A DNA stretch of 64,000 bases from positions 930,001 through 994,000 of the forward strand of contig NZ_CP047951.1 of NCBI RefSeq assembly GCF_014279755.1, read 5' to 3'. This DNA comes from Synechococcus sp. PROS-U-1 (GTDB taxonomy: Bacteria; Cyanobacteriota; Cyanobacteriia; PCC-6307; Cyanobiaceae). Made by a program: the position numbers and the translations under genes. Under the pieces are notes generated by a model. It was given only the letters and a program-made list of their open reading frames with translations. It had not been told where the DNA came from and searched no databases. Every line of letters starts with the position of its first letter. Within the stretch, counting starts at the first letter, position 1. Positions 10,291 to 56,877 of this stretch are shown piece after piece.

Positions 10291-11328
10291 TTAAGCACTC
10301 ACCTTGCTGTTGCCCATGTTGTCAAGCGCTTCAGAAACGCGCTTGAAATCAAAGCCCATGCCACGTAGAGCATGCCAAAAATGACCTTGAAGGAAGAAGA
10401 AGGCAAGGTAAAAGTGCGTATTCGCCAGCCAAGCGCGTGCAGTGTGTGCATCGCCTGGGAGAGCAGTCGTATCACTGAAGTAGGGAGAGAATGCAAAACC
10501 CAACTTCAATGGTTCTCCATATAGTTCAACCGGATAAATGGCTGTGTTTTGGGCACACCAAACGCTGGTTACAAAGCCCATCAACGCCACACCAGCAAGC
10601 GAGTACGACAAGATCGACTCACCGTTGTAAATCAGCAGTTTCTTGAAGGGACCGAAAGGGCTCGTGATGATGTGCCAAACGCCACCAATGGTGAGAATAA
10701 AGGCCAACACGGCATGACCACCCATCACATCCTCGAGGCTGCTAATTGAGAGGAAATTGGCTTGATAACCCCAGACCATTCCAAGGTCGATATTCGGCTC
10801 AACCCGACGAACAGCTCCCAAAGCACTGTCATAAATGCCATGCCGTTTTGCCCATTCCACAAAGGCAATCGCTCCAAGGCCAAGAAAGATCAGATGATGC
10901 CCCAGGATGAAAGTGAGCTGTTTGGCATCACTCCAGTCGAAATGAAACTTCTGGGCACGACCTTCAGCAGTCGAAAGATCTTTCGGAGCCCGGAGTGTAT
11001 GCCAAATACCAGCTGCTCCCAAAACAGCAGATGAAACCAGATGAAAGGCTGCGACCGTGACGAGGGGTTGCACATCTGAGATCACACCACCCTCCCCAAC
11101 ACCCAAACCGAGACCGGCAAGATGAGGAATCAAAATTAGTCCTTGCTCACCCATCGGCAACGCGCTGTTGTAGCGAGCAAGCTCAAACAAGGTGAAAGCG
11201 CCCGCCCAAAACATGATCAATCCTGCATGGGCTGCATGCGCTGCGATGAAAGAGCCGCTTCGTTTAGCCACTCCTGCATTTCCCGCCCACCAGTCATAAC
11301 TGACTGATGGACTTCCATAAGACTGCAT
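10291..11328 (-). CDS. isiA: Iron stress-induced chlorophyll-binding antenna protein (CP43')
   Basis: A 345-residue member of the CP43/Pcb six-helix family. SYDWWAGNAGVAKRSG and FIAAHAAHAGLIMFWAGAF at the N-terminus, LGHHLIFLGLGAIAFVEW mid-protein and FYLAFFFLQGHFWHALRG at the end are hallmark segments with the chlorophyll-liganding histidines. The length fits IsiA, which lacks the large lumenal loop of CP43 (about 460 residues). It forms thylakoid antenna rings around photosystem I under iron limitation. A Pcb-type antenna role cannot be excluded. It stands alone on its strand, with a long AT-rich leader containing inverted repeats. Confidence 0.9.
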   Translation of the reverse strand: MQSYGSPSVSYDWWAGNAGVAKRSGSFIAAHAAHAGLIMFWAGAFTLFELARYNSALPMGEQGLILIPHLAGLGLGVGEGGVISDVQPLVTVAAFHLVSSAVLGAAGIWHTLRAPKDLSTAEGRAQKFHFDWSDAKQLTFILGHHLIFLGLGAIAFVEWAKRHGIYDSALGAVRRVEPNIDLGMVWGYQANFLSISSLEDVMGGHAVLAFILTIGGVWHIITSPFGPFKKLLIYNGESILSYSLAGVALMGFVTSVWCAQNTAIYPVELYGEPLKLGFAFSPYFSDTTALPGDAHTARAWLANTHFYLAFFFLQGHFWHALRGMGFDFKRVSEALDNMGNSKVSA

Positions 11329-13155: not shown

Positions 13156-13489
13156 CAGAAGACAGATGCAAATTGGAACGAATCAACACCAGTTATTGAC
13201 CGGTGTAAAGGAGTGGAACAATGGAAATCAATATTGATTTTCACTCTTATAAACGCCTGCCTGACTCTTGAACCTGGAGGGAAGAAGAGTCAGGTGACGC
13301 CCAATAAATCCGACAGCATCGAATTCATTGTGTGAACAGCTCCGGCTGGAATGAACTGTCCTGATCAATGTTCGCTGCTTCAATGGAAAGAGATGCTGCC
13401 TATGCCGCAAGAGCGGCATAGTTTTGATCTAGTCAGACGTGACCGATGTCATCTCAGGCACGAATGAATCGCGGTTTATTTCTCTATCG

Positions 13490-14277: not shown

Positions 14278-14478
14278 TTATTTGATTTCGCGATGCAGCG
14301 TCATCTTGTTGAGCTGAGGGCAGAATTTCATGAGCTCAAGTCGTTCAGGATTATTCCTTCGATTCTTGGTGGTGGTGTATCGCGACACGCCGGGTGTTCG
14401 CTTTTCCGAAGCTGATGCTGTTCTGCATTCTGTGCATTCGAGAGTTACGATAATACGAACGCCTTTGCTCTTGGCCAT
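14278..14478 (-). CDS. rpmG: Ribosomal protein L33-like, divergent copy
   Basis: A 66-residue protein clearly of the bL33 family ([10 protein letters not shown] start; ECTEC at 14–18; [14 protein letters not shown]). bL33 sits near the 50S E site. The first zinc pair, Cys15 and Cys18, is intact. The second pair, usually CPHC, reads CPQL: Cys53 is kept and the partner is Leu56. The zinc ribbon is therefore partly lost. The usual cyanobacterial rpmG lies next to rpsR; this one is alone in an AT-rich island beside the hairpin array, so it looks like a paralogue or decaying copy. Function on the ribosome is uncertain. Confidence 0.8.
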
Positions 14479-14513
14479 AACGATTTGACACTTTGTTTAG
14501 GGTATGGGTGACT

Positions 14514-15005
14514 GGACTGACCCCTCCGGTTGAGAAGAGGAGTCAGTTGTAACCCCAGCGCGATGACCCGGATAAGTCATCGGATTGAAGGTGCCTCGCG
14601 AGTACCTTCAAATCCACAATGCCTATATTCACGCAGAGAATTTGTGCAAACGAGGTGTTGGCAGAGCTCAAATGAAACGAGGCCTTGTCGCAGAGTTGTC
14701 AATGAACAAAGCCGTATCGCTGGACTGACTCTTCGTCGCTCAAGAAGAAGAGTCAGTTCTGCTCCAGCGCCCGATGGCTCGCCAGAATCATCGGGTTGAA
14801 GAGGTGCTGTCAAGCTTCCCTTCGCAAAAACAATGACCTGGGCCAATGAAAAGTGCCGTTCCGATGAGGCAATCAACTTGTCCAAATGAAACGGGGCTCA
14901 GTTGCAATGCCACTCATCTCAATAGAGGAAACGCCGGACTGACTCCTCCTGCGACGAAGAAGCCAGTTGGTGTACCAGCGCCCGATGGCACGATCAGCCA
15001 TCGAT
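14514..15005. repeat. Three diverged ~210-bp tandem units, each with two hairpins
   Basis: Units begin with GGACTGAC at 14514, 14722 and 14936 (spacing 208 and 214). Each has hairpin 1, ACTGACTCTTC paired with GAAGAGTCAGT (perfect in unit 2 at 14724–14757, one mismatch in unit 1, several in unit 3). A conserved CCAGCGC follows, then hairpin 2: CGATGAC/GTCATCG at 14561–14582, CCCGATG/CATCGGG at 14770–14795 and CGATGGC/GCCATCG at 14983–15003. The A-T to G-C change between units 1 and 3 keeps the pair. The inter-hairpin parts also align (CAAATGAAACG). No coding frame is conserved. It lies 36 bases upstream of the divergent rpmG copy. Confidence 0.8.
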
Positions 15006-15361
15006 TTGGATGCTTCTCCAAGCGTCCTACCTCACTATTGCCTTGTTCCTTCTGGCCGTTGTTCCAATGCGTCACTGGAGTGGTTCAAAAGAGTCAAGGC
15101 CTTGTATCAACGAACTTGGCACTCCCATGCGTTGCCTCTGTCGCTTATTCGAGAAAATAACTCTCATGCAGGCCAGTTTTGGCATTTACTTTCTTTTTGA
15201 TTTTTGCTCAAGGCTGCTTGCCTAGCGACCTGGTGTTCTTGTTGATGCAGCTGTTTTAAAGGCATCTTTGCGCAGTTCTGTGCGCGTATTTAGGGCATCG
15301 ATGGCCTTCGATCAGGACCACGTATCTGGCCCAGTCGAGATGATGACATCAGGGGATCCGC
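15006..15361. other. Intergenic region before the PfkB gene
   Basis: This is about 350 bases with no convincing gene. The first ~150 bases may be a decayed continuation of the third repeat unit (a GTCAAGGCCTTG segment resembles the tail of unit 1). The rest is a T-rich stretch leading to the kinase gene. Confidence 0.4.
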
Positions 15362-16273
15362 ATGGGTCATGAGCTGCCGCAGCGGTCAGTCGGTTTCGGG
15401 CCGAATCACCAGAGAGGATGGGACTCCAGAGGTCTGGGATTGCCGTTGTCTTCTGCTTCAGCTCTGCCGCCGCTGCGCTTGGCCGTCGTCGGCCATGTCG
15501 AGTGGGTGGAATTTCTGGCGGTGGATCAATTGCCCCGTCCCGGTGCTATCGGTCACGCTTTGCGGACCCTGCAGGAACCCGCAGGTGGTGGTGCCGTCAC
15601 TGCTGTGCAGATGGCACGGTTGCAGCGGCAGCCTGTCCAGTTCTTTACAGCCCTTGGCCGCGATTCGCTCGGACAAGCCTGCGTTAACCGGCTCGAGCGT
15701 CTGGGCGTTGAGGTGCATGTCGCCTGGAGAGAGGCGCCAACCCGGCGGGGCCTGAGCTTGGTCGATGGCGAGGGAGACCGGGCGATCACCGTGATCGGCG
15801 AGCGGCTGACCCCATCACTCGACGACGATCTTCCTTGGCAGGCCCTCGGCGAGTGCGACGGCCTCTTCGTCACGGCAGCTGATGCGCCTTTGTTGAAAGC
15901 CTGCCGATCTGCTGCTGTCCTGGCCGCGACTCCGCGGGTTCGATTGCCTGTGCTTCAGGAGGCCAAGGTGTGCCTCGACGCTTTGATTGGCAGTGGGCTT
16001 GATCCGGGTGAACGCGTGGAGCCGGATCAGTTGAATCCAGCTCCTCAAACTCTCCTTCGCACAGAGGGTGCCGCAGGAGGGCTCAGTCTTCCGGGCGGGC
16101 GCTACGAACCAGCGCCACTTCCGGGGCCCATGGTGGAGAGCTATGGCTGCGGTGACAGCTTTGCAGCGGGGGTGGTCACAGCCCTTGCTGCCCGCTGGTC
16201 CTTGGCGGAGGCCATTGCTTTGGGTGCTCAGTGTGGTGCGGCATGTGCCACGCGCTTTGGACCCTACGGCTAG
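15362..16273 (+). CDS. PfkB/ribokinase family carbohydrate kinase
   Basis: A protein of up to 303 residues of the PfkB sugar-kinase family. The core starts LRLAVVGHVEWVEF; GGGAVTAVQMARLQ lies in the substrate region, and the C-terminal SYGCGDSFAAGV is the PfkB signature 2 with the catalytic Asp (usually GAGDxF; here GCGD). The substrate is unknown. The first ~38 residues before LRLAVVGH are not typical, so translation may begin at a TTG near 15434 instead. The gene follows the repeat island. Confidence 0.8.
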   Translation: MGHELPQRSVGFGPNHQRGWDSRGLGLPLSSASALPPLRLAVVGHVEWVEFLAVDQLPRPGAIGHALRTLQEPAGGGAVTAVQMARLQRQPVQFFTALGRDSLGQACVNRLERLGVEVHVAWREAPTRRGLSLVDGEGDRAITVIGERLTPSLDDDLPWQALGECDGLFVTAADAPLLKACRSAAVLAATPRVRLPVLQEAKVCLDALIGSGLDPGERVEPDQLNPAPQTLLRTEGAAGGLSLPGGRYEPAPLPGPMVESYGCGDSFAAGVVTALAARWSLAEAIALGAQCGAACATRFGPYG

Positions 16274-56355: not shown

Positions 56356-56478
56356 ATCTGCTTAGGCACGCCATTCCCACGATGGATCGTTCAAGCCCCA
56401 AAAGGCAATGAGCACGACAGCTGATTGCCGTTGGCCTGATCGCTAACGAGAGTGTGTTTATCGAGATCGGAGGAGCCC

Positions 56479-56755
56479 ATGACGGCCGACACTCCACCTG
56501 AGCAAATCAGAGAAGCAGACTGACTTTCTGGCCCCCTGCTCCAACAGTTTCCACCCATTCGTAAGCAAGTCGTCTGGCGCGACAACGAAGACCGTCAAGC
56601 CAGTCGAATCTCCTCTGCATCGTTTGGAGGTGCCCCGCAGGAGAGTTGCTTCACACCTGGACCCGATGGCCCCAGGGTGCCTTGAGTTAGACGCTTCGAC
56701 CTTTCCTGTCTCAGTTCCATTGCTGGAGGAGATTTCCCAAGGCATCAGACACTGA
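56479..56755 (+). pseudogene. Possible frameshifted small gene
   Basis: ATG 56479 follows GGAGGAGCCC, a strong ribosome binding site, but its frame stops after 14 codons at 56523. A second, open 78-codon frame (56519–56755, no start of its own) begins right there, one base out of phase, with protein-like composition (TTKTVKPVESPLHRLEVPRRR). One indel or slip near 56519 would join them into a ~90-residue protein. No family is recognised, so the call is tentative. Confidence 0.3.
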
Positions 56756-56792
56756 ATTTGAGGTCGATTGCAATGTGCAAACGAGCGAGTTA

Positions 56793-56820
56793 GGCCGTCT
56801 TTCCATCGGGAAGGGCGGCC
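56793..56820 (+). terminator. GC-rich terminator-like hairpin
   Basis: GGCCGTCTTTCC and GGGAAGGGCGGCC pair over ~12 positions (with wobbles and a bulge) around an ATC loop, followed by TTCCTCTT on the plus strand. It lies between the possible split frame and the convergent LprI-like gene. The T run is short, so strength is uncertain. Confidence 0.5.
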
Positions 56821-56877
56821 TTCCTCTTGGGCCGTTGCCCCTCAGCGCTGGTGGGTCATCCCTTCGTGCGCGTCGTC

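Follow-up and report, generated by a model that had tools for sequence, protein, structure and literature searches.

The three direct repeats that precede an rpmG paralogue in the 64,000-nucleotide stretch of Synechococcus sp. PROS-U-1 analysed here (the window) are members of a family of units of about 190 nt, dispersed as well as tandem, which in our samples is confined to one genus of marine Synechococcus. The folded strand of the units is the minus strand, their covariation is strong, and the structured RNA family that they form is without a match in Rfam 15. In our judgement the chances are about even that the unit, which has been tandemly multiplied, acts in cis as a structured RNA leader of small genes in the islands.

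The initial annotation had described three diverged direct repeats of about 210 bp, each with two hairpins. The repeats were confirmed, with spacings of 208 and 214 (Table 1), but the layout proved incomplete, as a third hairpin follows hairpin 2. The structured part continues into a part that is conserved in sequence and has no consensus fold (CAAATGA on the plus strand), so that the whole unit measures about 190–200 nt and the earlier size has to be corrected. The motif CCAGCGC is conserved as stated there, but is not free: it pairs with the sequence preceding hairpin 1, and the resulting outer stem is interrupted on one side by a bulge of about 6–9 nt. The arms given for hairpin 2 hold for unit 1 (CGATGAC/GTCATCG) and unit 3 (CGATGGC/GCCATCG), but unit 2 reads CGATGGC/ATCATCG, with one G-T replacing a G-C. 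On either strand the units fold much more stably than 200 dinucleotide shuffles: the plus strand gave z values of -4.01, -4.87 and -2.79 for units 1, 2 and 3, and the values for the minus strand are listed in Table 1. The absence of a conserved reading frame was upheld for the 5' part. Although a frame AHLVxAIASSER can be read in the 5' part of many units, stops are present and third positions are not more variable than the others (mean entropies of the codon positions 1.13, 1.26 and 1.25, in 94 of 121 units examined), and we rejected protein coding in this part.

Table 1. Features of the array and its neighbourhood in the window, with positions counted from its first letter. The z values are from minus-strand folding against 200 dinucleotide shuffles; R1 is the covariance model of the family, and units 1, 2 and 3 all belong to its training set.
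Feature	Positions	Strand	Evidence
Unit 1 (the one closest to rpmG), structured part; order of hairpins in the RNA 3, 2, 1	14507..14615	-	R1 82.2 bits, z -5.03
Unit 2, structured part	14715..14825	-	R1 76.0 bits, z -4.96
Unit 3, structured part	14929..15033	-	R1 64.3 bits, z -4.68
Conserved 5' core of unit 1, without a consensus fold; minus-strand motif of the CTCATTTG type	14669..14692	-	Direct repeat D1; unit alignments
Conserved 5' core of unit 2	14883..14906	-	Direct repeat D1, 79%
Conserved 5' core of unit 3, diverged	15086..15109	-	Direct repeat D1, 75%
Fourth copy beyond rpmG, weak, probably decayed	13251..13366	-	R1 24.7 bits, E 2.2e-4
rpmG paralogue, ribosomal protein L33, 66 aa	14278..14478	-	ORF; PF00471 E 5.2e-22

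A first DNA search within the genus found matches in 10 of 34 genomes, and profile iteration on the matched loci revealed that a genome carries several arrays, whose period is close to 195 nt. One truncated unit was omitted from the first unit alignment, and loci L062, L063, L064, L066 and L072 were not included in the HMM gathering. Model R1 was derived from alignment A2, which comprises 50 minus-strand units (54 were listed, and four with a longer insert were omitted); it holds 16 pairs, fewer than the 31-pair structure tested later. The covariance search that the initial annotation had proposed placed the units in a larger family of marine Synechococcus, detected in 22 of the genus's 34 genomes (14 of the 19 good ones), with 0 to 26 copies each. 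The multi-copy nature suggested for the three units was thus borne out, with 13 copies in the window's own genome and the maximum of 26 in G002. Strong matches beyond the training set include G000 2126031-2126145 (101.6 bits) and one at G033 C12 (92.2 bits). A very similar subfamily of units was also seen in six genomes (L145, L150, L156, L157, L158 and L163 at 9973), in partly different flanks, and two of these genomes have a single R1 match.

Outside the genus the family was not recovered in the genomes sampled. Under stricter filters, with which weak matches are lost, R1 matched 17 of 300 genomes of the family, all from the window's genus (one of 59 genera), and six of 386 genomes of the phylum, again from one genus only (of 142). 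When 13 genomes from other genera were scanned with laxer filters, all matches were weak (best E 0.019), and three weak other-genus matches inspected by eye were taken as chance. An exact-pattern scan of named genomes returned 11 stretches, including ones from Synechococcus sp. MU1642, AG-670-A05, AG-670-B23 and an uncultured Synechococcus; two of the 11 are beta-proteobacterial and presumably due to chance. Phage records had no match to window positions 14450-15250, nor viral contigs to the exact pattern used on the named genomes. The earlier statement that no described family has this layout holds for Rfam 15, in which nothing matched the units at the gathering score or, between 14400 and 15300, at any E value up to 10. 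It holds likewise for the open literature searched, a set outside which most subscription papers lie and in which no description appeared.

A published RNA that invites comparison is Yfr103, which is likewise a multi-copy structured non-coding RNA of marine Synechococcus, and highly abundant, according to its description (PMC5069720). That the units are a form of Yfr103 is extremely improbable. The same description gives it a length of 290–328 nt and seven copies in CC9605, against about 190 nt and the 26 copies in G002 for the units, and reports it from WH7803, RCC307 and Prochlorococcus, whereas R1 found no other genus among the 300 family genomes and only chance-like matches in the 13 genomes scanned with laxer filters. 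On this published description, Yfr103 is set apart from the units by their shorter length, greater copy number and narrower host range.

The idea that selection acts on RNA structure gained support from both the alignment and the orthologues. When the 31-pair structure was imposed on A2, 92.5% of 1524 cells were paired, and in 14 of the pairs and 95 of the cells both sides had changed, a level that none of 500 shuffles reached. Pairing fell to at most 48.6% when partners were shifted by one to three columns. The number of further pair types, 39, did not exceed the shuffled mean of 38.8. Kinship among the units makes the shuffle test look stronger than it is, so that more weight falls on the slide control and on the comparison with orthologues. 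For the three units of the window, ten comparisons with orthologous units yielded 40 changed pairs in the minus-strand fold, 36 of which keep pairing, and 29 in the plus-strand fold, of which only four do. The orthologues thus preserve the pairing, contrary to the outcome that the initial annotation had named as a refutation. Counted as distinct states, 25 of 29 stem changes are kept on minus and 4 of 23 on plus. We therefore assign the folded strand to minus, resolving a point that had been left open.

The composition of mismatches also points to the minus strand. Among the first 54 units, plus-strand A-C (equivalent to G-U on minus) was more frequent than plus-strand G-U, at 107 against 40, and in a less similar set, reduced from 103 to 73 units by removal of similar ones, the stems of the minus-type strand held 216 G-U against 39 A-C. 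At unpaired conserved columns of the 73 units there was little difference between C and G (C to T 165 in 17 columns, G to A 101 in 12 columns), and T to C (100) exceeded A to G (49) at unpaired columns, whose number was not counted for this pair. Folding of the minus strand as single-stranded DNA would produce the same strand bias.

With the strand resolved as minus, the array lies directly upstream of the rpmG paralogue and in its direction. The initial annotation had correctly placed the array upstream but had called the gene divergent; its start codon lies 29 nt beyond unit 1. In the window the frame of this copy, which had been described as degenerate, is open (Table 1), and its protein shows 75% identity with the main class of rpmG copies. 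A second rpmG copy occurs in eight of the 34 genomes and adjoins units every time, with three to eight units at the locus in the seven genomes mapped. It is present in G000, G002, G004, G015, G023 and G030; the copies of G027 and G028 are broken or truncated. The array also adjoins an isiA-type gene, named by eye, and the antisense RNA IsrR, which was located opposite that gene at window 10764-10935 (+, 54.9 bits). Further arrays are carried by a second island with a flavodoxin-like ORF (gene names again by eye). The same islands contain another family of dispersed repeats, which reach about 430 bp, at window 56364-56831 (-), at L073 2698-3121 and 11957-12380, at L079 10983-11411, and in L081 and L171.

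Small genes follow the units at many other sites. We surveyed 74 units that end a run, representing 43 sites in 13 genomes, with carriers such as G015 and G020 outside the count; since many sites are orthologues, the independent cases of linkage between unit and ORF are fewer. Half of these units (37) are followed on the same strand by a recurring small ORF, whose start lies 11–103 nt later (in one case 133), and after the other 37 no ORF was recognised. The ORFs fall into seven families that are unrelated to one another: a short membrane peptide close to MVPLVLP (8 cases), L33 (7, two of them damaged), a MLEVVAAI membrane peptide (6), the VELLNYT protein (6), DUF3104 (5), MKRSLKII (3) and metallothionein (2). 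Pfam names, each taken from one member, could be given to DUF3104, L33 and metallothionein (PF02069, E 2.5e-13), and Pfam had no match for the MLEVVAAI, VELLNYT, MVPLVLP-like and MKRSLKII families. The distance from unit to start codon is nearly constant within an ORF family (27–29 nt for L33, 53–64 nt for DUF3104) and differs between families. For DUF3104, a unit lies within 300 nt upstream of only 7 of 123 matches; the domain is itself strongly multiplied across the genus, its 123 matches occurring in 33 of the 34 genomes and in none of 14 control genomes.

In the VELLNYT family, unit and ORF form one block found at different places. An R1 unit lies directly upstream on the same strand in 12 of the 19 VELLNYT genes of the 34 genomes. 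Of the seven genes without one, two are in genomes that lack any R1 match (G001 and G014) and five in genomes with units elsewhere. The sequence common to the unit-bearing loci extends from the 5' core of the unit to the stop codon, and at several of these loci the flanking DNA is unrelated; what the genes without a unit share with these loci is the ORF only.

Such blocks, together with the unit subfamily found in partly different flanks, would be expected if the unit were a DNA element, folded as a single strand and recognised by a recombinase or transposase (an attachment site, a cassette site or a miniature mobile element) with the ORFs as cargo. Tyrosine-recombinase ORFs do adjoin a few units, at L146 (PF00589, 38.3 bits), at L168 with a score under the cut-off (21.3 bits) and, judged only by eye, at L164, and a fragment of one occurs at G020 C62. 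We regard this reading as unlikely. The genome of the window has only two PF00589 matches, neither of which is an integron integrase by NCBIfam (one scores 45.1 bits with TIGR02249 against a cut-off of 265, and the other has no TIGR02249 match), and no precise empty site was found for 28 isolated units, in a comparison with the units masked and limited to the loci collected here. At the L074 site, unit remains are present also in G008 and G015. Like integron attC arrays, the units are folded repeats that alternate with small ORFs in one direction; unlike attC, the unit has three hairpins in a row rather than one and precedes its ORF, the reverse of the cassette order, and this order together with the lack of an integrase in the window's genome rules out an integron array. 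REP/RAYT systems resemble the units in having dispersed and arrayed palindromic repeats, but the units are much longer, and the Y1 transposase (PF01797), present in four of the 34 genomes, is absent from that of the window, as well as from G000, G002, G015, G027 and G028, which excludes a REP/RAYT system there. Elsewhere in the window's genome, at L077 and 2.3 kb from a unit array, a XerC/D-like recombinase gene (14465-15550, -) adjoins and slightly overlaps a permuted tmRNA gene (15525-15811, -).

The initial annotation had left the choice between a small RNA and a leader, and the latter gains support from the small ORFs that follow half of the run-ending units in the same direction, the covarying structure lying on the coding strand of the downstream gene. 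The alternative, in which each unit is an independent gene for a trans-acting small RNA, multiplied in tandem like other multi-copy cyanobacterial sRNAs and with hairpin 1 as its 3' end, is one that we consider doubtful, though still to be reckoned with. The length of about 190 nt, the stable 3' hairpin, the tandem copies without intervening ORFs and the half of run-ending units without a recognised ORF all fit such a gene. The linkage to small ORFs would be unexpected, no conserved promoter-like pattern was found upstream of 46 first units, and the T tract after hairpin 1 is weak, 25 of 82 units having at least five T in eight positions. Scanning the locus for promoters and terminators gave results no better than shuffles, and a strong intrinsic terminator is, with the weak T tract, unsupported.

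Several observations count against a leader: half of the run-ending units lack a recognised ORF, few DUF3104 matches have a unit shortly upstream, and neither the region before the 46 first units nor the scan of the locus revealed a promoter. In some cases, moreover, the unit starts right at the stop codon of the gene before it, which would fit a 3' element too. The units could then be terminators or insulators that were duplicated long ago and mark where genes of the islands end, with the downstream small ORFs as chance neighbours, and the long stable hairpin 1 would suit that role. We hold this to be very unlikely, given the weak T tracts, the near-constant distance to the downstream ORF and the blocks that unit and ORF form jointly. 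In L146, L149 and L161 the gene whose stop codon coincides with the start of the unit is a small one ending in YGQK; at other loci a recombinase gene ends ahead of the unit.

If the units are leaders, each would be transcribed together with the downstream ORF as its 5' leader, and the hairpins may set the stability, processing or read-through of the transcript. In the window, three such putative leaders in a row would precede the rpmG paralogue on the minus strand, beside the isiA/IsrR locus. Conservation is concentrated in stem letters (mean 0.86) over loop letters (0.56), and of the 44 unpaired columns a single one comes close to invariance. This speaks against an aptamer, and a riboswitch aptamer was accordingly left unsupported. 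Start distances that are constant within ORF families and different between them argue against direct masking of the ribosome site. Taken together, the conserved stems and the family-dependent distances make a protein or nuclease that sees the helix likelier than a ligand aptamer or masking, and the likeliest guess is that such a factor would act on transcript stability or processing.

By position, the nearest known system is the Downstream-peptide/Glutamine-II RNA (RF01704), a structured RNA of marine cyanobacteria described in PMC2864571 as lying in potential 5' UTRs of short ORFs; according to the same paper, copies of glnA RNA (RF01739) can be tandem. The units share the position upstream of short ORFs, but match neither RF01704 nor RF01739, and differ from RF01704 in having their conserved letters in stems, in ORF families that include L33 and metallothionein, and in being limited to one genus. 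A Glutamine-II riboswitch (RF01704) is present elsewhere in the window's genome, at L073 9-70 (+, 62.4 bits).

Within the variable islands of a marine phototroph, the units link overlooked small genes, including those for the L33 paralogue, metallothionein, DUF3104 and short membrane peptides, and this linkage provides a testable reason why small island genes might be jointly controlled. It is conceivable, although quite a long shot, that the units represent a genus-specific system in which unrelated small genes were given one common RNA leader. Leader and ORF would have travelled as one cassette in the absence of an integron integrase, and leaders would then have accumulated in tandem. In iron-stress and other islands, a single structural control would thereby act on the L33 paralogue, metallothionein and several uncharacterised membrane peptides. 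The mechanism by which genes enter such islands is described in PMC2441476 as still to be elucidated, and the unit family bears on how genes come into the variable islands of these bacteria.
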